In this document: piece after piece, positions 14,662 to 45,920 of the stretch | Layout of the letters: each line of letters opens with the position of its first letter | Position numbering within the stretch: position 1 is the stretch's first letter | The notes under the pieces: generated by a model | Seen by the model: only the letters and a program-made list of their open reading frames with translations | Databases searched by the model: none | Told to the model about the DNA's origin: nothing | From: Kineococcus endophyticus | GTDB taxonomy: Bacteria > Actinomycetota > Actinomycetes > Actinomycetales > Kineococcaceae | Direction of reading: 5' to 3' | NCBI RefSeq assembly: GCF_040796495.1 | Contig: NZ_JBFNQN010000019.1 | Span: forward strand, 1 to 64,000 | Length of the DNA stretch: 64,000 bases | Translations under genes and position numbers: made by a program

Positions 14662-15744
14662 TCAGCGCTCGACGGTGCCCGCGATGAACGCCTCGACGCC
14701 GGCGCGGCCGGACTCGTCGTCGCGCTGCTGCGGCGGGGACTTCATGAAGTAGGCCGACGGGGACAGCAGCGGGCCGCCGATCCCCCGGTCCAGGCCGATC
14801 TTGGCGGCGCGGACGGCGTCGATGATGACGCCCGCGGAGTTCGGGGAGTCCCAGACCTCGAGCTTGTACTCCAGGTTCAGCGGCACGTCCCCGAACGCCT
14901 TGCCCTCCAGGCGGACGTAGGCCCACTTGCGGTCGTCGAGCCACTGGACGTAGTCGCTGGGGCCGATGTGGACGTTGCGGGTGCCGAAGTCGGCCTCGAC
15001 GTTGGAGGTGACGGCCTGCGTCTTGGAGATCTTCTTGGACTCCAGGCGGTCCCGCTCCAGCATGTTCTTGAAGTCCATGTTGCCGCCGACGTTCAGCTGG
15101 TAGGTCCGCTCCAGCTTGATGCCGCGGTCCTCGAGCAGCTTGGCCAGGACGCGGTGGGTGATGGTCGCGCCGACCTGGGACTTGATGTCGTCGCCGACGA
15201 TCGGGACCCCGGCGTCGGTGAACTTCTGCGCCCACTCGGGGGTGCCGGCGATGAAGACGGGGAGCGCGTTGACGAAGGCGACCTTCGCGTCGATCGCGCA
15301 CTGGGCGTAGAACTCCGCGGCGTCCTGGGACCCCACGGGCAGGTAGCAGACGAGGACGTCCGCGCGCGCCTCGCGCAGGGCGGCGACGACGTCGACCGGT
15401 TCGGCCGCCGATTCGCTGATCGTCTCGCGGTAGTACTTCCCCAGGCCGTCGAGGGTGTGCCCGCGCTGCACCGTCACACCGGTGGTGGGGACGTCGCAGA
15501 TCTTCACCGTGTTGTTCTCCGACGCGCCGATCGCGTCGGCCAGGTCCAGACCGACCTTCTTGTCGTCGACGTCGAACGCGGCGACGAACTCCACGTCGCG
15601 CACGTGGTACTCGCCGAACTGCACGTGCATGAGCCCGGGGACGGACTGCGAAGGGTCGGCGTCGCGGTAGTAGTGCACGCCCTGGACGAGCGAGGCGGCG
15701 CAGTTGCCGACGCCGACGATCGCGACGCGGATGGGACCGGCCAT
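14662..15744 (-). CDS. ino1: inositol-3-phosphate synthase
   Basis: A 360-residue NAD-dependent enzyme that turns glucose-6-phosphate into 1D-myo-inositol 3-phosphate, the precursor of phosphatidylinositol and mycothiol. The N-terminal nucleotide motif is [16 protein letters not shown] (residues about 7-22); MIPS-type blocks include [26 protein letters not shown] and NVGGNMDF. The size fits the short actinobacterial form rather than the ~530-residue eukaryotic one. ATG 15744 has GGAG upstream and shares its A with the TGA of the PadR gene (TGATG), so the two are co-transcribed and coupled. Its job fits the other thiol-redox genes in the window. Confidence 0.93.
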
Positions 15745-16331
15745 CAGGGGGTCTCCTTCGGGGTGGGGATCGGGGTGGGACTCGGGTGGTGTTCGGCGGT
15801 GATGAGTCGTTCGAGCCAGTCGACCTCGCTGCGCACGGTCTCCACGCCGTGCCGCTGGGCCTCCAGGGCGTAGACGTCGAGCTGGGTCTGGGTGCGCTCG
15901 ATGGAGCGGTTCATCTGCTCCAGTCGTTCGAGCAGGCGGGCGCGACGGCCCTCGAGGATGCGCAGCCGGGTGCGGGGTGCCACCCGGCCGAAGAGCGCGA
16001 AGTGGACGCCGAACGCGTCGTCCTCCCACGCCTCCGGGCCCGACTCCTCGAGCATGTCGGCGAGCCGGTCGCGGCCGTGCGCGGTGATCTCGTAGACGAC
16101 GCGGGCCCGCTTGGGGCTGATGGTGCCCGGGAGCCGCTGCTCGGTGGTCTCGGTGATGCAGCCGCCGGCCTGCAGGGCGCGCAGCGCGGGGTAGAGCGTC
16201 CCGTAGCTGAGGGCGCGGAAGACGCCCAGCCGCTGGTCGAGGCGCTTGCGCACCTCGTACCCGTGCATCGGACCGTCGGCCAGCAACGCCAGGACGGCCA
16301 GCAGGACCACGTCACCACGCTTGCGGACCAC
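15744..16331 (-). CDS. PadR-family transcriptional regulator
   Basis: 195 residues. The N-terminal winged helix ([22 protein letters not shown]) is typical PadR, and a C-terminal helical Vir_act_alpha_C-like domain (about 95-180) would mediate dimerisation. GTG 16331 has AAGGAGC 8-9 nt upstream. It is the first gene of the operon with ino1; the two-gene order is common in actinobacteria. Two copies of GATGCATC lie in its leader and suggest autoregulation, which would also control inositol synthesis. The inducer is not known. Confidence 0.9.
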
Positions 16332-16481: not shown

Positions 16482-16910
16482 ATGGTCAGTGGCCCTGCTG
16501 AAGCGCTGGAACGCGAACTCGCCGTGCTCTTGCGGCGCTCACGCGCCATCAACCGGGAGACCGCGCGCAGCGTGCACCCCGACCTGGAACCGGAGGCCTA
16601 CAGCCTGCTGGTGCGCCTCGACGACGTCGGGGAGTCCCGCCCCTCGGACCTGGCGACCTTCTTCGGCATCGGCAAGCCCACGCTGTCCCGGCAGGTCCAA
16701 CTGCTGGAGCGCCTCGGCCTCGTCAGCCGCGAGGCCGACCCGACCGACGGGCGGGCCGTCAAGCTGACCCTCTCCCCCGACGGCCTGGAGAAGGTCCACG
16801 CCGCCCGCGCCGCGCGCCGGCAGCGGCTGCACACCCGCCTCGAGGGCTGGCCCGAGGGCGACATGACGGCGCTCGCCGACCTCCTGCACCGCCTCAACTC
16901 GGCCATCTGA
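16482..16910 (+). CDS. MarR-family transcriptional regulator
   Basis: 142 residues with a winged-helix core: SRPSDLATFFGIGKPTLSRQVQLLERLGLVSREADPTDGR includes the recognition helix and the wing with the DxRxxxLxLT-like block (DGRAVKLTLS). N- and C-terminal helices would form the dimer. ATG 16482 is preceded by a weak purine stretch. It diverges from padR-ino1 and is followed by a strong hairpin, so it is monocistronic. Its target is not evident; it is distinct from the MarR-type gene of the next operon. Confidence 0.88.
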   Translation: MVSGPAEALERELAVLLRRSRAINRETARSVHPDLEPEAYSLLVRLDDVGESRPSDLATFFGIGKPTLSRQVQLLERLGLVSREADPTDGRAVKLTLSPDGLEKVHAARAARRQRLHTRLEGWPEGDMTALADLLHRLNSAI

Positions 16911-16994: not shown

Positions 16995-17028
16995 GGTTGC
17001 ATGGAGCAACCAATCCTCGTATGGTTGC
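16995..17028 (+). promoter_or_regulatory. promoter and inverted-repeat operator of the MarR/MFS/YceI operon
   Basis: TTGCAT (16997-17002), a 17-bp spacer and TATGGT (17020-17025) form a credible sigma-70-type promoter. Overlapping it are three half-sites: GGTTGC (16995-17000), GCAACC (17006-17011) and GGTTGC (17023-17028), making GGTTGC-N5-GCAACC over the -35 and GCAACCA-N9-TGGTTGC reaching the -10. This is what a MarR autorepressor operator would look like. Binding by the adjacent MarR protein is inferred. Confidence 0.6.
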
Positions 17029-17064
17029 TTGCACACACCAACCGAGTCGTCACCCGAGGTCGTC

Positions 17065-17550
17065 ATGGCCACACCCCACGCGTGCGCCGCGCTCGTCGAC
17101 GTGTTCCCGGACCTGCTCCGGACCCGTCGCGCGCTGGTCGGCACGCAGAACACGCCGGCGATCGTCGCCCTGACGGTCGTCCTCCAGCACGGACCGCTGC
17201 GCATCAGCGAGGTCGCCGACCACCTGGCGCTGGACCTGTCGACGGTCAGCCGCCAGATCAGCCACCTCAAGCAGCGCGGTCTGCTGACCTCCTCCCCCGA
17301 CCCGGCCGACGGTCGCTCCCAGCGGCTGAGCGTCACCCCGGCCGGCCTCGAGGAGCTGCGGACGGTGCGCCGTGCCGTCGTCGACCGGCTCGTCGACCAC
17401 CTCGACGGCTGGGGGGACGACGAGGTCGAGCACCTGACCCGCCTCCTCGGCCGGCTCACCGGGACCGAGCCACCACCGGAGACCGTCGACCTCACCGACC
17501 ACCAGTCCAGCCCGACCCGCCACGAGATGCAGTTGCAGGGGAACGCATGA
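17065..17550 (+). CDS. MarR-family transcriptional regulator of the MFS/YceI operon
   Basis: 161 residues from ATG 17065 (GAGG 6-8 nt upstream). The winged helix is LRISEVADHLALDLSTVSRQISHLKQRGLL followed by the wing SSPDPADGRSQRLSVT. The frame is open to 16981, but that part overlaps the promoter and would put the start ahead of the -10, so it is excluded. The stop overlaps the MFS start by 4 bp (ATGA). MarR proteins beside DHA2 exporters usually repress them and release on binding the exported compound; the inverted repeats over the promoter support that here. Confidence 0.88.
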   Translation: MATPHACAALVDVFPDLLRTRRALVGTQNTPAIVALTVVLQHGPLRISEVADHLALDLSTVSRQISHLKQRGLLTSSPDPADGRSQRLSVTPAGLEELRTVRRAVVDRLVDHLDGWGDDEVEHLTRLLGRLTGTEPPPETVDLTDHQSSPTRHEMQLQGNA

Positions 17551-20150
17551 GCACCACGACCGACGTCCACGCGACGTCCAGCACGGCCACCGGACCCGGT
17601 GGCACCCCGAAGATGACCCACGCGCAGATCCTCGAGGCGCTCTCGGGGCTGCTGCTGGGCATGTTCGTCGCCATCCTGTCCTCGACCGTCGTCTCGAACG
17701 CGCTGCCGCGCATCGTGAGCGACCTCAAGGGCACCGAGTCCGGCTACACCTGGGTCGTCACGGCGGCGCTGCTCGCCACCACGATCTCGACCCCGATCTG
17801 GGGCAAGCTGTCCGACCTCTTCTCCAAGAAGCTGCTCGTCCAGATCGCCCTCGTCATCTTCGTCGTCGCCTCGGCCATCGCCGGGCTGTCGACGAGCATG
17901 GGCATGCTCATCACGCTGCGCGTGTTCCAGGGCCTCGGCGGCGGCGGTCTGCTCGCGCTGGCGCAGGTCATCCTGGCCTCGATGGTGAGCCCCCGGGAGC
18001 GCGGCCGGTACTCCGGCTACCTCGGCGCCACCTTCGCCCTGGCGACCGTCGGCGGCCCGCTCATCGGCGGGGTGCTCACCGAGCACCTGTCGTGGCACTG
18101 GTGCTTCTACGTCGGGATCCCGTTCGCGGTCATCGCGTTCATCGTCCTGCAGACCCGCCTGAAGCTGCCCGAGCAGCCCAAGCGCGCGGTCTCCATCGAC
18201 TACCTCGGCGCGACCCTGCTGGCCGCCGGCATCTCCGCCCTGCTGATCTGGGTCTCCCTGGCCGGCACGCAGTTCGACTGGGCCTCGTGGTGGACCGTCG
18301 GCCTCGTCGCGGCCGGTGTCGTCCTGCTGGGCCTGGCCGTGCTCGCCGAGCACCGCGCCAAGGAGCCGATCGTCCCGCTGAAGTTCTTCCGCAACCCGAC
18401 GATCGCGCTGTCGGCCGCGGCCAGCCTCTTCGTCGGTGTCGCCATGTTCGGCGCCACCATCTTCCTCAGCCAGTACTTCCAGCTCGCCCGCGGCGAGTCC
18501 CCGACCATGGCCGGCGTCATGACCATCCCGATGATCGTCGGGCTGTTCCTCGCCTCCACCGTCGCCGGGCAGTTCATCACCCGCACCGGCCGCTGGAAGG
18601 GCTGGCTCGTCACCGGCGGTGTGCTGCTGACCGCGGGCCTCGGCCTCATGGGCACCATCGAGTACGACACGAACTACTGGGTCGTCGCCCCGTTCATGGC
18701 CCTCATCGGCCTGGGCGTCGGCATGATGATGCAGAACCTCGTCCTGGCCGTGCAGAACGTCGCGGACCCGCGCGACCTCGGCTCGGCCAGCTCCTTCGTC
18801 GCCTTCGCCCGCAGCCTCGGTGGGGCCATCGGGGTCTCCGCGCTCGGTGCCGTCCTCGGCCACCGGGTCACCGACCACCTCGAGAGCGGCCTGCGCGCCG
18901 CCCGCATCGACCCGGGCCAGGCCCTGTCCTCGATGGGCTCCTCGACCGGCGTGCCGGACCTGGGCGCCATCCCCGAGCCCGTGCGCTCCATCGTGCAGTC
19001 GGCGTACGGCTCCTCCATCGCGGACGTCTTCCTCATCGCCGCCCCGTTCGCGCTCGTCGCGTTCCTCATCACGCTGTTCTTCAAGGAGCGCGCGCTGCGC
19101 ACCGGCGACGAGACCTCGCAGACCCCCGAGGCCACGCAGACGCCGGACGCCACGACCCGCACCGCGGCCACGGCCGTCACGGCCACGACGGGCCAGGAGG
19201 GCGTCGGCAGTGCGAGGATCGGCACCGCGACGGTGAACGGCCACCCGCACCCCGACCGGGAGGAGATCCCCAGCGTGCCCGCCCAGCCCTCGCGCACCGA
19301 CGCCGGTCTCACCGTGTCCGGCACGGTCCGCCACCACGACCGCCGGCCGCTGCCGGGTGCCGTCGTGACCCTCGCCGACCAGTCCGGTCAGCAGGTCGCC
19401 CGCACCAGCACCCGCGAGGACGGCGGGTACACGCTCGAGCTGCCCACCGGCGGCACGTACCTGCTCATCGTCGCCGCGGCCCACGTGGCCCCCTCCGCCA
19501 CGCTCGTCGGCGTCGGGGACAGCTCGGTCACCCGCGACGTCGTCCTGTCCGGCCGCTCGGCCATCACCGGCCGCGTCCTGACCCACGCGCTGCCCGACGA
19601 CTTCGGCGCGGGCCACGACGGCCGCACGACGGGCGTCCACGGGGCCCTGGTGACCCTGACGGACGTCACCGGCGAGGTCGTCGGCTCCACCCGCAGCGAC
19701 GACGGCGGCGGCTACTCCTTCGACCAGCTCATGGGCGGCACCTACGTGCTGACCGCGCAGAGCGAGTCGCACCGGCCGCTGGCCCGCAGCATCGAGGTCC
19801 CCGACTCCGGGGCCCTGGCCTGCGACCTCGTCCTCACCGGCGGGGGCCGCCTCACCGGCACCGTCGTCGCCGCCAGCGACGGCCGCGTCCTGCGCGAGGC
19901 GACCGTCACGCTCGTGGACGCCGACGGCGAGGTCGTCGGGTCGGTCGTCACGAGCGCCGACGGCAGCTACTCCTTCGAGGACCTCGCCGGCGGCCACTAC
20001 ACGCTGACCGCCGCCGGGTACGCCCCCGTCGCCACGTCCGTCGACGTCGAGGAGGACACCGTGTCCGCCGCCCAGATCACGCTCGGCGCCCGCGACGCCG
20101 GCGCCACGCTGGACCTGACCCGGTTCGAGTCCCGCTCGGAGCAGCGGTGA
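17547..20150 (+). CDS. MFS transporter (DHA2/EmrB type) fused to three carboxypeptidase-regulatory-like domains
   Basis: 867 residues. Residues about 25-515 form a 14-TM DHA2 drug:proton antiporter core (TM1 LSGLLLGMFVAILSSTVVS; motif A-like PIWGKLSDLFSKK; motif C-like GATFALATVGGPLIGGVL; last TM ending FFKERAL). A Thr/Ala-rich linker (about 515-588) leads to three tandem beta-sandwich repeats of 80-100 residues starting near 589, 670 and 766, each with a GxVxxxDGxxLxGAxVTLxD core and a DGxYSFxxLxxGxYxLTA ending. These resemble CarboxypepD_reg/CnaB-like folds. A 14-TM core puts the tail in the cytoplasm, which is odd for this usually extracellular fold. The gene overlaps marR and the YceI gene by 4 bp each. 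Substrate unknown. Confidence 0.9.
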   Translation: MSTTTDVHATSSTATGPGGTPKMTHAQILEALSGLLLGMFVAILSSTVVSNALPRIVSDLKGTESGYTWVVTAALLATTISTPIWGKLSDLFSKKLLVQIALVIFVVASAIAGLSTSMGMLITLRVFQGLGGGGLLALAQVILASMVSPRERGRYSGYLGATFALATVGGPLIGGVLTEHLSWHWCFYVGIPFAVIAFIVLQTRLKLPEQPKRAVSIDYLGATLLAAGISALLIWVSLAGTQFDWASWWTVGLVAAGVVLLGLAVLAEHRAKEPIVPLKFFRNPTIALSAAASLFVGVAMFGATIFLSQYFQLARGESPTMAGVMTIPMIVGLFLASTVAGQFITRTGRWKGWLVTGGVLLTAGLGLMGTIEYDTNYWVVAPFMALIGLGVGMMMQNLVLAVQNVADPRDLGSASSFVAFARSLGGAIGVSALGAVLGHRVTDHLESGLRAARIDPGQALSSMGSSTGVPDLGAIPEPVRSIVQSAYGSSIADVFLIAAPFALVAFLITLFFKERALRTGDETSQTPEATQTPDATTRTAATAVTATTGQEGVGSARIGTATVNGHPHPDREEIPSVPAQPSRTDAGLTVSGTVRHHDRRPLPGAVVTLADQSGQQVARTSTREDGGYTLELPTGGTYLLIVAAAHVAPSATLVGVGDSSVTRDVVLSGRSAITGRVLTHALPDDFGAGHDGRTTGVHGALVTLTDVTGEVVGSTRSDDGGGYSFDQLMGGTYVLTAQSESHRPLARSIEVPDSGALACDLVLTGGGRLTGTVVAASDGRVLREATVTLVDADGEVVGSVVTSADGSYSFEDLAGGHYTLTAAGYAPVATSVDVEEDTVSAAQITLGARDAGATLDLTRFESRSEQR

Positions 20151-21007
20151 GCCCGGACCCGGCGGCGCCCTCGCACCTCGCCGGCGGCCCGGCCGGCACC
20201 ACCTCCGGGGTGACCGGGGAGGGGCGGGTCCTCGACCGCGAGGGCTGGCCCGTCACGGGGGCGTCGGTGACGCTCCTGGGGGCCGACGGCTCCCAGGTCG
20301 CCCGCGCCGTCACCGGCCGCGACGGCGGCTTCGCCCTCCTCGGGGTGCCCGCGGGGGCGGCGACCATGCTCGTCGCCGCCGCGGCCCACGAACCACGGGC
20401 CACGAGCGTCGTCGTCCCCGGCGGGGGCGCCTGGCGCATCGGCGAGGTCCGGCTGCGGCGCCAGGGCGGCAGCGACGTGCCGCCGCCCGGCGTGTGGGCC
20501 ATCGACGTCACGCACTCCTCGATCTCCGCCCGGGCCCACCACCTCGGCCTGGCCGCGGTGAACGGCCGGTTCACGGGCTTCACGGGAGTCATCACGGTCC
20601 CCGAGGACGTGACGCGGGCCAGCGTGCAGGTCGAGATCGACGCGACGACGATCGACACCGGCAACGCCGTGCGCGACGAGCACCTGCGGTCGGCGGACTT
20701 CCTCGACACCGACCGCTACCCCACCCTGACCTTCTCGGCCACGGGGGTGCAGCGCGGTGCCGACGGGTGGGTCCTGTCCGGCGACCTCACGCTGCTGGCC
20801 ACGACCCGGCCCGTCCAGCTGCAGCTGTCCTACGCAGGCTCCGGCCCGGATCCGTGGGGCGGCACCCGCGCCGCGTTCTCCGCGACGGCCGAGCTGCACC
20901 GCGACGACTTCAAGATGAACTGGAACCAGGCCGTCGGGATCGGCGTGGCCGTCTTCGGCACGACGCTGAAGGTCCAGATCGACGTCGAGGCCGTCCTGCA
21001 GCAGTAG
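20147..21007 (+). CDS. YceI-family protein with N-terminal carboxypeptidase-regulatory-like domain
   Basis: 286 residues. About 15-95 is one beta-sandwich repeat (GEGRVLDREGWPVTGASVTLLGADG ... GRDGGFALLGVPAG) matching the tail repeats of the MFS protein; about 110-286 is a YceI domain (VWAIDVTHSSISARAHHLGLAAVNGRF, SADFLDTDRYPTLTFSATG, FKMNWNQAVGIGVAVFGTTLKV). YceI proteins form a lipocalin-like barrel that in known structures holds a polyisoprenoid. No signal peptide is visible, so it is predicted cytoplasmic. GTG 20147 overlaps the MFS stop (GTGA). Shared domains and coupling suggest the two proteins act together, perhaps on an isoprenoid or other lipid; this is inference. Confidence 0.88.
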   Translation: MSPDPAAPSHLAGGPAGTTSGVTGEGRVLDREGWPVTGASVTLLGADGSQVARAVTGRDGGFALLGVPAGAATMLVAAAAHEPRATSVVVPGGGAWRIGEVRLRRQGGSDVPPPGVWAIDVTHSSISARAHHLGLAAVNGRFTGFTGVITVPEDVTRASVQVEIDATTIDTGNAVRDEHLRSADFLDTDRYPTLTFSATGVQRGADGWVLSGDLTLLATTRPVQLQLSYAGSGPDPWGGTRAAFSATAELHRDDFKMNWNQAVGIGVAVFGTTLKVQIDVEAVLQQ

Positions 21008-21025
21008 GACTCCCACCCCGATACG

Positions 21026-21059
21026 CGAGAGCCCCGCACCCTCCGGTGCGGGGCTCTCG
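21026..21059. terminator. hairpin after the YceI gene
   Basis: A perfect 15-bp stem (CGAGAGCCCCGCACC, 21026-21040, with 21045-21059) and a 4-nt loop, 18 bp past the stop. Its core is nearly identical to that of the next hairpin. Confidence 0.75.
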
Positions 21060-21142: not shown

Positions 21143-22444
<1,302 letters not shown>

Positions 22445-42664: not shown

Positions 42665-43354
42665 CTACAAGGGGGTGACGCGGACCCCCGCCGCGTCGAC
42701 CTGCACCAGGGACCGGTCCGGCACGTCCTCCCAGCGCGGGTCGTCGTCGTGGGGTTCGCTCGCGACGACGACCCCGTCGTCGGTCCGCAGGACGCTGAGG
42801 GTGTCGCCCCACGCGGTGGCGACCAGGCGGGCGCCGTCGGCGGCCAGGACGTTGAGGCGGGCGGTGGGGTCGGCCTCCCCCGCGGTGCGCACGCGCGGGC
42901 CGATCTCGTCGGGTGCCGCGAGGAGCCAGGACGCGAGCACCGCGGAGTCGCACACCGACTCCGCGGTGGGCCAGGCCTCCGCGGGCAGCACGGACCGCTC
43001 GACCCGGCCGTTGTGCGACAGCGCCCAGGCACCCCGGACGAAGGGCGCGCACGCCGTCTCGTCCGCGGGCATGCCGACGGTGGCGTCGCGCACGGCACCC
43101 AGCACGCAGCCCGCCGCCACGTGCGGGGCGACGGAGGCGAGCGAGGCGTCCGCCCACAGCGGCGCGGCCCGGCGCCACCGGGCCGGTGCGCTGCGGGCTG
43201 CGGTCCACCAGGCGGCCCCCCAGCCGTCGGCGTTGACGCTCCCGTGGTGCTGCCGCCGCGGAGCCCAGCTCTGCTGCAGCAGCCCGTGCTCGCGCTCCAG
43301 GAGCAGGTCGGCCAGGCTGCGCTCGGCGCCCAGCCAGGCCGTGTGCCGGCACAC
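42665..43354 (-). CDS. egtC: ergothioneine biosynthesis amidohydrolase EgtC
   Basis: 229 residues. Class II glutamine amidotransferase-type hydrolase; the catalytic Cys is residue 2 (CRHTAWLG), followed by DLLLEREHGLLQQSWAPRRQ, HGSVNADGWGAAWW and ALSHNGRVERS. In ergothioneine synthesis it removes glutamate from gamma-glutamyl-hercynylcysteine S-oxide. GTG 43354 starts 2 bp after the egtB stop, so it is coupled. Third gene of egtA-egtB-egtC. The known next gene, egtD, is not here; a convergent nitroreductase gene follows instead. Confidence 0.93.
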   Translation of the reverse strand: MCRHTAWLGAERSLADLLLEREHGLLQQSWAPRRQHHGSVNADGWGAAWWTAARSAPARWRRAAPLWADASLASVAPHVAAGCVLGAVRDATVGMPADETACAPFVRGAWALSHNGRVERSVLPAEAWPTAESVCDSAVLASWLLAAPDEIGPRVRTAGEADPTARLNVLAADGARLVATAWGDTLSVLRTDDGVVVASEPHDDDPRWEDVPDRSLVQVDAAGVRVTPL

Positions 43355-43356
43355 GC

Positions 43357-44676
43357 TCAGGCGTCCCAGGCCAGGCGGACACCCGTGAAGATCTGCCGTC
43401 GCACGGGCCAGTCCCAGTTCCGGAACGAGGGTCGCACCGACACGGACGTGCTGGCCCAGGACCCGCCGCGCAGCACGCGGTAGCCACCGCCGAAGAACGG
43501 CGCGGAGTAGGTGTCGTAGAGCATCGGGGAGAACCCCGGCCACGGCGCGAAGTCCGAGGACGTCCACTCCCACACGTCGCCCATGAGCTGCTCGACGCCG
43601 TACGCACTGGCCCCGGCCGGGTACGCCCCGACCTGCGCGGGCCCGAGCGCGTGCCCGCCGAGGTTGGCCCGCTCCGCGGTCGGGGCCTCATCACCCCACG
43701 GCCACCGGCGACGGCGGCCCAGCGCCGGGTCCCAGGCGCACGCCTTCTCCCACTCGACCTCGGTGGGCAGCCGGGCGCCGGCCCACCGCGCGAAGGCCTC
43801 CGCCTCGTGGCAGTCGACGTGCTGCACGGGCGCCGCGGGGTCGAGGGCGACCTCGACGGCGAACCGCCGCTGGGTCCACCCGCCCGCACCGTCGCGGGCC
43901 CAGCCGAGCGGGGTCGTGATGCCCTCCGCCCGCCGGTGCGCCCAGCCCGCGCGGGTCCAGTGCCGGGGGTCCTCGTACCCGCCGTCCTCGACGAAGGCCG
44001 CCCACTCACCGTTCGTCACCGGGACGCGGCCGATGCGGAACGCCGGGACGTGGACGCGGTGCTGCGGGTGCTCGTTGTCCAGGGCCCACGGCTCCTGCGC
44101 CGGGTCGACGCCGAGGAGGAACTCCCCCGCCGGGACGAGCACCGGTTCGGCCGGGACGACCCGGCCGGGCGGCGTCGGCGCGGCCGCGAGCAGCGGGTCG
44201 CCCGAGCGCAGGTTGTGCGTCGCGAACATCGTCTCGTCGTGCTGGTGCTCGTGCTGGGCGACCATCGCCACCGCGAACGCCGCCTCGCGCGGGTCGTCCG
44301 CGCGGACGCGCGCGACGCGGTCCAGGACGCGGTTGCGCACGTCGGCGAGCGCCCGCCGGGACGCGCGCGGGTCCAGCAGCGGCAGCTGCGTCCGCGTCGC
44401 GCGCGGGTGCTCGGCCGCGTCGTAGAGGCAGGCGATCGTGGGGTGGAAGACGGGCGTCCGGTCGGCACCCGCCCCCTGCCGCAGGAGCCACAGCTCCTCC
44501 TGCTGCCCGATGTGGGCGAGGTCCCAGACGAGCGGACTCATGAGCGGGGAGTGCTGGACGGTCAGCTCGGCGTCGGCGGCCTCGGTGAGGCGGGCCGTCG
44601 TGCGGCGGCCGGCCTGCAGGGCCGCGACCGCGCCCTCGAGCGGGTGGACGGTCGAGTGGTCGTCGAGCGTGGTCAC
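43357..44676 (-). CDS. egtB: ergothioneine biosynthesis sulfoxide synthase EgtB
   Basis: 439 residues. N-terminal DinB-like domain with the iron-binding histidines: His55 in [11 protein letters not shown] and the H-x3-H-x-E set His142/His146 in QHEHQHDE. The C-terminal ~230 residues are an FGE/sulfatase-modifying domain ([59 protein letters not shown]). It uses iron and O2 to join gamma-glutamylcysteine and hercynine. GTG 44676 overlaps the egtA stop by 4 bp. Hercynine must come from EgtD encoded elsewhere. Confidence 0.95.
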
Positions 44677-45920
44677 CGGAGGTCCTCCGCGGTCAGGCAG
44701 GCGTCCGGTCCGTCGGCGCGGAACCGGTCGGTCACGAGGTCGGCGGGGCTGCGTCCCGCCGCGAGCAGCTCCGTCCAGGCGTGGACGGCGGCCACGAGCG
44801 AGGGGTCGACCCGGGGCGTGGCCGCGGCGAGCACCCCGAGCGCGGCCCGGCGCAGGGCCGGGTCGGCGAGCCCGAACCGGACGGCGTCGGCCCCGCGGTC
44901 GGCCACCGGCTCGGCGGCCTCGGCGGCGGCGCCCGCCGCCACCGGGTCGTCGACGACGGTCGTGACGACGGCGGCCAGGCCCGGGCGCAGGGCCGCCGGG
45001 ACGGCGTCGAGGAACCGCAGCTCGAGGAAGCCCCGCAACCGCACGGGCGGCCAGAGCGTCGTGAGGTGCGCGTCGACGTCGTCGGTGCCGGGGCGGCGGT
45101 CGTCGAGCAGGACCCGGCCCGCGGCCCAGTCGGCGAAGGGGACGTGCTCGCGGACGGGCGCGAACTCCCCGCTCGCCTGCACGCGGACGAACATGACGGG
45201 CGCCGCGAACGCGAACTCCACCCACTCCGCGACCGGGTCGCTGCCGTCCCCGGACGCCCGGCACCGGCCCGGTTCCAGCCGTCCCCAGACCTCCTGCCGG
45301 CCGCACACCGCTCCGGTCGGGACGCCGTGGCGCAGCGGCGACGTCGCCGCGAGCGCGACGAGCACGGGCGTCAGCCGGCGCACGTGCGCCAGCCGGTCGG
45401 CCCACCCCGCGGTGGGCCCGGCGTCGAGGTTGACCTGCAGGGAGGCCGTCGAGGCCATCATCGTGGCGCCGTCGAGGTGGTGGCCCACGGCGTCGAAGTG
45501 CGCCTCCATCGCCCGGTACCGCGACCCCGGGTGGACGCGGACGGGAGCGCGCACGGGGTCCAGGCCGGTGGCGAGCGCGACGAGCCCGTCGGACGCCAGC
45601 AGGGCGTCGACCGCGGTCGCGTCCTGCTCCAGGCCCGCGACGGTCGCCACGAGGTCGCCCGGCGGGGTGGACAGCTCCACCTGGCCCCCGGGTTCGAGGG
45701 TGAGGCGCGAGCCCGCGGGTGGCACGAACCCCGCCACGAGCGACGTCAGCCGGTCCCAGTCCACGCGGCGGCGCGGGGCGCGGACGTCGACCACGTGCCG
45801 TTCGAGCTCGAGCCCGACGGTGCCCGTCCCCGAGGGGCGCAGGGCGGTGGCGGCGACGTGGGCGCGCAGGGCGTCGGGCGGCGAGACCGCCTCGACGACG
45901 CGGGGGACGGTGAGCGACAC
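44673..45920 (-). CDS. egtA: glutamate--cysteine ligase EgtA
   Basis: 415 residues of the GCS2/YbdK-like family (ATP-dependent glutamate-cysteine ligase), which makes gamma-glutamylcysteine for EgtB. Marks: [11 protein letters not shown] near residue 40, [14 protein letters not shown], and the [14 protein letters not shown] segment. GTG 45920 follows GGAAGGGG. First gene of egtABC on the minus strand; a perfect 15-bp palindrome lies 59 bp upstream. Order egtA-B-C matches mycobacteria. Confidence 0.92.

Follow-up and report, generated by a model that had tools for sequence, protein, structure and literature searches.

A putative MarR-type efflux operon of Kineococcus endophyticus with a portable three-domain exporter tail and a YceI lipocalin carrying a domain of the same family

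We have analysed a three-gene operon in a 64,000-nucleotide stretch of Kineococcus endophyticus DNA (contig NZ_JBFNQN010000019.1 of assembly GCF_040796495.1, positions 1 to 64,000; hereafter the window). The genes encode a MarR-family regulator (marR2), a DHA2-type exporter of the major facilitator superfamily (MFS) and a YceI-family protein. The exporter ends in a tail of three domains of the carboxypeptidase regulatory-like family (CarboxypepD_reg, PF13620; here CPD), and the YceI protein begins with one such domain. The comparisons below suggest that this tail is a portable unit and that the YceI protein has diverged in step with it. An earlier note on the sequence had described the three genes, and its coordinates and junctions are confirmed: on open reading frame analysis each junction is a 4-bp overlap (ATGA, then GTGA). 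Its operon extent needs two corrections, as 16995-17064 is a promoter and operator stretch and not coding, and a second regulator gene (marR1, 16482-16910) had been missed. Relatives of marR1 also adjoin the operon in other genera (upstream in Saccharopolyspora, downstream of YceI in genus g55), and we count it as a member of the module. The features are as follows.

16482..16910, plus strand: marR1, second MarR-family regulator (Pfam MarR_2, 49.2 bits)
16997..17009, no strand: operator-like site TTGCATGGAGCAA, the sole TTGCN5GCAA in the window
17029..17041, no strand: another conserved promoter site, TTGCACACACCAA, with exact copies in 11 of 12 Kineococcus promoters and 12 of 12 when one mismatch is allowed
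17065..17550, plus strand: marR2, putative SAV4189-type repressor, 161 residues, ATG start (Pfam MarR, 44 bits); in 73 of the 80 named loci described below a marR gene precedes the exporter
17547..20150, plus strand: DHA2-family MFS exporter with C-terminal tail, 867 residues, ATG start (Pfam, NCBIfam; AlphaFold2 mean pLDDT 78.7)
19278..20147, plus strand: three-CPD tail, exporter residues 578-867 (Pfam CPD at 19311-19547, 19629-19835 and 19851-20084; 52.4, 39.8 and 57.0 bits)
20147..21007, plus strand: YceI protein with N-terminal CPD, 286 residues, GTG start (Pfam; AlphaFold2 mean pLDDT 79.7)
20219..20437, plus strand: CPD domain of the YceI protein (46.3 bits)
20495..20992, plus strand: YceI barrel (147.8 bits; fold matches 1y0g, 7bwl, 1wub)
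21026..21059, no strand: terminator-like perfect 15-bp inverted repeat with a 4-base loop, read from the sequence with positions checked, between the operon and a convergent gene at 21143-22444

The exporter scores 181.7 bits against MFS_1 and, over three stretches, 114.8 bits against CarboxypepD_reg. With the NCBIfam model DHA2 efflux_EmrB (TIGR00711) it reaches 242.8 bits and thereby passes the curated cut-off of 230.2 bits, which upholds the class assigned to it earlier. Hydropathy gives 13 transmembrane helices in the core; the AlphaFold2 model has 14 if the long helix 149-204 is taken as two. In this model a linker of low confidence (521-585) follows the helical core and leads to three beta domains, which lie between residues 588 and 846. 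All four CPD copies, three in the tail and one in the YceI protein, lie above the curated PF13620 cut-off of 32.3 bits (39.8 to 57.0 bits), as the earlier note had read them.

In a whole-protein scan the YceI protein scores 146.2 bits against YceI (PF04264, cut-off 23.7 bits) and 43.0 bits against one CarboxypepD_reg. Its AlphaFold2 model combines a small beta domain with a YceI barrel; residues 1-19 and 256-271 are poorly modelled. In Foldseek the barrel matches 1y0g (TM-score 0.88), 7bwl (titled 'antibiotic sequester'), 1wub (titled 'polyisoprenoid-binding protein') and BcnB/BcnA; normalised by target length, the TM-scores are 0.82-0.89. There are also weak matches of the model to transthyretin-like domains, to carboxypeptidase D and to X-dockerin modules. 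The YceI protein shows no signal-like N-terminus, the maximum 15-residue mean hydropathy among 113 relatives being 1.25 with start codons taken from our own gene caller. The match to 1wub bears on the interpretation first offered for this locus, a dedicated system in which a carrier and an exporter or sensor handle one isoprenoid-type lipid. The YceI domain does resemble TT1927b, the protein titled polyisoprenoid-binding in 1wub. However, the presumably orthologous repressor responds to unrelated antibiotics (PMC6036246), the exporter core can be swapped while YceI stays, and none of the window genes close to the operon looks isoprenoid-related by eye. We therefore regard this interpretation as improbable.

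The matching sequence patterns formerly seen in the tail and the YceI protein are a likeness of family and no closer: in the domain tree the YceI CPDs are placed separately from the tail repeats (support 93/89, below the star level of the tool, from few columns), and they carry an invariant tryptophan. This residue, W34, is present in 15/15 CPDs of YceI fusions that we call class I, and in 0/10 of class II and 0/69 tail repeats; the class I domains were excised partly via the tryptophan motif, and in full alignments of 15 and 30 rows it does not vary. The two classes were divided after the scores had been seen. The domain tree also lends no support to the idea that one of the tail domains was recently copied into the YceI gene. 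The class II loci (L066, L067, L069, L072, L073, L086-L100) belong to Streptomyces-like genomes, are more distant and lack the invariant tryptophan.

The regulatory region partly resembles that of a characterised Streptomyces module. According to PMC6036246, SAV4189 of Streptomyces avermitilis is a repressor of its own gene and of sav_4190, an MFS gene transcribed with it; it binds three copies of TTGCCYKHRSCAA, and hygromycin B and thiostrepton release it. Compared to this published 13-bp consensus, TTGCATGGAGCAA has two mismatches, both at inner positions, with the TTGC/GCAA arms intact. One TTGCN5GCAA was seen in the window against 0.17 expected, and at least one occurred in 16/100 shuffles. 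Its arms are exact in 10/12 aligned Kineococcus promoters, of which two (L111 and L123) come from the same strain. Among the 62 of 80 named loci with a clear marR start, all Streptomyces-type promoters, the strict published motif stands upstream of marR in 55/62 and TTGCN5GCAA in 60/62, often at about -100, -59 and -30, which matches the published footprints. From gene order and operator, marR2 and the exporter appear to be the orthologues of SAV4189-SAV4190. By analogy, it is very probable that a MarR repressor would sit on TTGCN5GCAA operators until released by a toxic small molecule, and that the exporter and the YceI protein would then be made together; for the Streptomyces orthologues this has been published for the repressor and exporter part only (PMC6036246).

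The pairing of the two fusions, on which the earlier note had staked its proposal, is near-constant. In a set of 59 relatives, 11/11 genomes of the genus (own included) and 1/47 of the same order (G018) have the full-length YceI fusion; it was not found in the single same-family genome of another genus. A sample of 394 genomes of the class contains 37 with the fusion, called at E<=1e-58 with the N-terminal domain covered. In 35/37 a tailed exporter lies directly upstream (in G087 it is cut by the contig end); the exceptions are G411, with a tailed exporter elsewhere (L208), and G353, in which the operon exporter is tail-less and 609 residues long. In the named collection a tailed exporter lies upstream of the YceI fusion in 80/80 loci, with marR upstream in 73/80. 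These loci are the best 80 of at least 577 relatives (74 Streptomyces, 3 Streptacidiphilus, 2 Saccharopolyspora, 1 Kineococcus), and since they were picked by similarity, 80/80 is no unbiased rate. Altogether, tail and YceI are adjacent in 110/116 loci examined, with some genomes counted twice among the 110 pairs. The gap between the two genes has a median of 104 nt, a 4-bp overlap is found in 17/110 pairs, and a fused MFS-YceI polypeptide in none of them. Matches in plasmid records all stay below 60% identity, and 10/201 span at least 80% of the query. A tail-profile match anywhere in the genome accompanies class I YceI in 37/37 genomes vs 16/357 others; by genus this is 7/7 vs 6/131, and within the Streptomyces-like genus 27/27 vs 5/12, the genome lists having been typed from earlier scan results. 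Inheritance of a single operon explains much of this co-occurrence.

The tail has a wider distribution than the operon. The tail profile (A4) matches 53/394 class genomes and 14/396 genomes of a phylum sample, all 14 from the same class; a match is not the same as a proven exporter tail, as in G139 it is a 278-residue CPD-only protein (L263) and in G124 a contig end. Ten proteins were scanned for domains. Five are MFS proteins with CPD (L203, L194, L205, L258, L268), two are MMPL proteins with CPD (L204 of the own genome, and L257), two are CPD-only (L263, L264) and one is a tail-less MFS protein (L223). The repeats group mostly by position in the domain tree, and hence the tail appears to move as an ordered unit. 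In the core tree the operon-type cores form one clade (100/100), whereas a tail tree constrained to keep the operon-type tails in one group is worse by 245 log-likelihood units (p-AU 0.00014). The same constraint on the tails of a second MFS subfamily, which occurs in both Kineococcus and Streptomyces, gives a p-AU of 6.5e-63. These tests cover 36/39 tails (without L257, L258 and L273) and 34 cores (also without the two MMPL rows), in groups named after an earlier tree had been seen. Identities tell the same story: the Kineococcus operon exporter shares 51% in the tail and 28% in the core with the second Kineococcus MFS exporter, and 38% in the tail and 60% in the core with the Streptomyces operon exporter. 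The tails of the three Kineococcus exporter families, including the MMPL tail (47% identical to the operon tail), cluster together with the G261 tail (91/84, below the star level). Thus, core and tail histories conflict, and sequence comparison identifies the three-CPD tail as a portable unit, carried by MMPL proteins as well as by several MFS subfamilies.

Further carriers of these domains were seen. The own genome encodes an MMPL-type transporter with a three-CPD tail by Pfam (L204:4596-8123, contig C2), and G001 has another by likeness only (L226:5125-8244); a TetR-like gene, judged by eye, adjoins these transporters. Two soluble-looking proteins with three CPD domains alone (L263:5227-6063 in G139, L264:5097-6215 in G411) are possibly free versions of the tail. 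In G404 (L077) a YceI-CPD protein is paired with yet another MFS subfamily, the core of which is 36% identical to the window exporter.

Three lines of circumstantial evidence point to a link between the tail and the YceI protein. The first is a closed domain set. Ten CPD domains of the own genome exceed the cut-off: three exporter tails account for nine of them and YceI for one; two weaker matches below it lie elsewhere. In eight further Kineococcus genomes (8 of 10 of the same genus, matches at E<=1e-7) 73/73 CPD matches fall in tail-profile stretches (65) or YceI (8). Combined, 83/83 domains in nine Kineococcus genomes are of these two kinds and no third kind of CPD protein was found above threshold; the carrier proteins of unlinked tail-type stretches were read for those of the own genome and for two of G001. 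Outside these nine, G011 has no CPD match and G018 has two (one in YceI); of the nine in G261, three belong to the tail and one to YceI, and five lie elsewhere. The second is a core swap. In the Streptacidiphilus fuscans locus L194 the exporter core is foreign, sharing 43% identity with that of the second copy (L188), against 81% in the tail and 98% in YceI, and the break coincides with the core-tail border. This one strain has two copies of the pair, with a gene resembling TrmB by eye in the place of marR. The third is co-divergence, measured on 78 of the 110 pairs that remained when L194, L077, L085, short tails and cores at least 95% alike were dropped. Given the core, YceI distances follow the tail (partial r 0.86 for the barrel, 0.84 for the CPD); given the tail, they ignore the core (0.08 and -0.08). 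The CPD still follows the tail given both core and barrel (0.39). In the 64 Streptomyces-type pairs the values are 0.71 and 0.68 for the tail given the core, and 0.04 and -0.07 for the core given the tail; here 0/500 permutations were as high for tail and CPD.

It might be that the link is a genetic artefact of adjacency, with cores recombining away and CPD coding repeats prone to exchange. The tail adjoins YceI in nearly all loci, as counted above, and the exchange point in L194 is the core-tail border. However, the unlinked Kineococcus tails of the second MFS exporter (51%) and the MMPL exporter (47%) are nearer to the operon tail than is the Streptomyces operon tail (38%), and G411 holds both parts unlinked. 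We consider such an artefact unlikely as the whole explanation, although linkage with core-tail recombination could account for both the co-divergence and the swap. Taken together, the closed Kineococcus set, the co-divergence and a core swap that keeps tail and YceI lend circumstantial support to a link between the like domains, and a functional connection of some kind seems somewhat favoured by these comparisons.

Our best reading, to which we assign a probability of about 50%, is an inducible efflux operon in which a cytosolic lipocalin serves CPD-tailed exporters. The YceI protein would work in the cytosol because it has no export signal, and its barrel could capture amphipathic or hydrophobic molecules, as suggested by its N-terminus and by the antibiotic capture of other YceI proteins. 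DHA2 and MMPL proteins have a cytosolic C-terminus, so the tail and the YceI CPD would face the same compartment. The YceI CPD may then associate with the three-CPD tails at the inner face of the exporters and bring captured molecules to the pumps, in the first place to its operon partner and perhaps to any other tailed exporter. Domain distribution and co-divergence are the basis for this last step, and direct docking with hand-off is a tentative proposal, less probable than the functional link as such. A still bolder version is doubtful: that the portable tail recruits the CPD-tagged lipocalin as a shared docking site, the lipocalin captures drugs inside the cell and hands them to any tailed pump, and the tail moves as a unit between the MFS and MMPL superfamilies and is kept in step within a lineage.

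Several observations weigh against the cytosolic-lipocalin reading, and two other explanations draw on them. Hygromycin B is hydrophilic and ill-suited to a hydrophobic barrel. Many exporters carry the tail without a YceI neighbour, and the tail has been retained where YceI was lost (G232, and G211, in which a YceI remnant is left); with the tail also present on MMPL proteins, a system 'dedicated' to one transporter, as first proposed, is not supported. The tail might instead serve generally as a scaffold, either holding exporters together in clusters or binding some other factor in the cytosol, with the YceI fusion as an optional client. This would fit its occurrence on two superfamilies, its persistence after YceI loss, the 16/53 genomes with a three-CPD match that lack class I YceI-CPD, and the stand-alone proteins L263 and L264. 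It fits poorly with a tail match in every class I YceI genome, with YceI distances that track the tail, and with the missing third kind of CPD protein in the nine Kineococcus genomes, and we judge it unlikely. Conversely, YceI-CPD proteins exist apart from tails. Class II fusions have no adjoining tailed exporter in 20 loci, and 2/5 class II-only genomes have a tail match, which indicates no link. G018 keeps YceI-CPD while its orthologous exporter (L223) is a 606-residue MFS protein without CPD and the tail profile finds no match in the whole genome; G353 keeps YceI-CPD beside its tail-less operon exporter. The YceI protein might act by itself as a sponge that takes up drugs or damaged lipids; it would simply be induced along with the pump, and the CPD would do no more than stabilise or oligomerise it. 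Other YceI proteins sequester antibiotics alone (PMC5350466), and the class II loci and G018 agree with such a role. Yet the closed CPD set of Kineococcus and the core swap speak against a sponge, and the tryptophan is invariant in class I and absent in class II, as though class I made a contact of its own; the sponge, too, seems unlikely.

If the tail binds the YceI fusion, a soluble cytosolic binding protein would supply, by way of one shared type of tail, several drug exporters that are unrelated to each other. To our knowledge there is no earlier case of this kind. In the shared-docking version the lipocalin would resemble the periplasmic binding proteins of importers, on the export side, and binding would show what one class of YceI proteins does. 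Should the two not bind, actinomycete efflux would still have an unexplained trait, a tail that passes from MFS to MMPL pumps or back and that evolves by lineage. In Streptomyces the presumed counterparts of marR2 and the exporter are already exploited for higher avermectin yields, deletion of sav_4190 increasing avermectin by about 56-67% (PMC6036246), and hence these ideas are testable in Streptomyces.

Two further regions of the window are noted in passing. On the minus strand at 14662-16331 a PadR-family regulator (Pfam) overlaps an inositol-phosphate synthase-like gene (by eye), divergent from marR1, and at 42665-45920 three minus-strand genes resemble an ergothioneine cluster by eye.

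Among openly licensed papers we found none that ties YceI and an extra domain, or a polyisoprenoid, to an MFS transporter; a title-level listing for YceI and Streptomyces with MarR or efflux gave nothing relevant, and SAV4191 was not mentioned in that literature. The portable tail, the core/tail conflict, the YceI divergence that tracks the tail and the closed Kineococcus set were likewise not found in print. The closest known system is SAV4189-SAV4190 (SCO4032-SCO4031 in S. coelicolor), so that the earlier statement that no characterised example exists does not hold for the repressor and efflux protein. In both systems marR lies directly upstream of a co-oriented MFS gene of more than about 2.4 kb, co-transcribed in the Streptomyces case; the palindromic TTGC...GCAA arms of the published operators recur in the operator-like site of the window; the length of sav_4190, at least 2.4 kb as inferred from deletion coordinates, leaves room for a tailed exporter (PMC6036246). 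The statement stands for the YceI gene, since the available parts of that account mention neither it, SAV4191, nor the tail. In S. coelicolor sco4032 and sco4031 rise (log2 3.58 and 2.25) 10 min after novobiocin, which the authors attribute to supercoiling (PMC6637917); drug sensing by the MarR repressor could be an alternative. SCO4121-SCO4122 likewise is an MFS multidrug exporter under MarR control (PMC11944582). It was set aside as a counterpart, its neighbour SCO4120 being listed as an orphan histidine kinase and not YceI.

The YceI-family lipocalins BcnA/BcnB share the YceI fold with the window protein (5ixg and 5ixh in Foldseek), capture several antibiotics and are antibiotic-induced (PMC5350466). 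In contrast to the secreted BcnA, the window protein has no signal-like N-terminus and carries a CPD, and it sits with an MFS exporter, while lipocalins of the BcnA type pair with cytochrome b561 (PMC9113575). A yceI gene of Marinobacter increases tolerance to some terpenes (PMC8791446). Compared to other DHA2 exporters (EmrB-type, TIGR00711), the window exporter is extended by a tail, some 290 residues long, that holds three CPD domains. The CarboxypepD_reg/transthyretin-like domains belong to the same Pfam family, with weak matches in the PDB to NOMO2, carboxypeptidases D and N and cellulosome X-dockerin modules. Those proteins are extracellular or lumenal, whereas the window domains would lie on the cytosolic end of an exporter.

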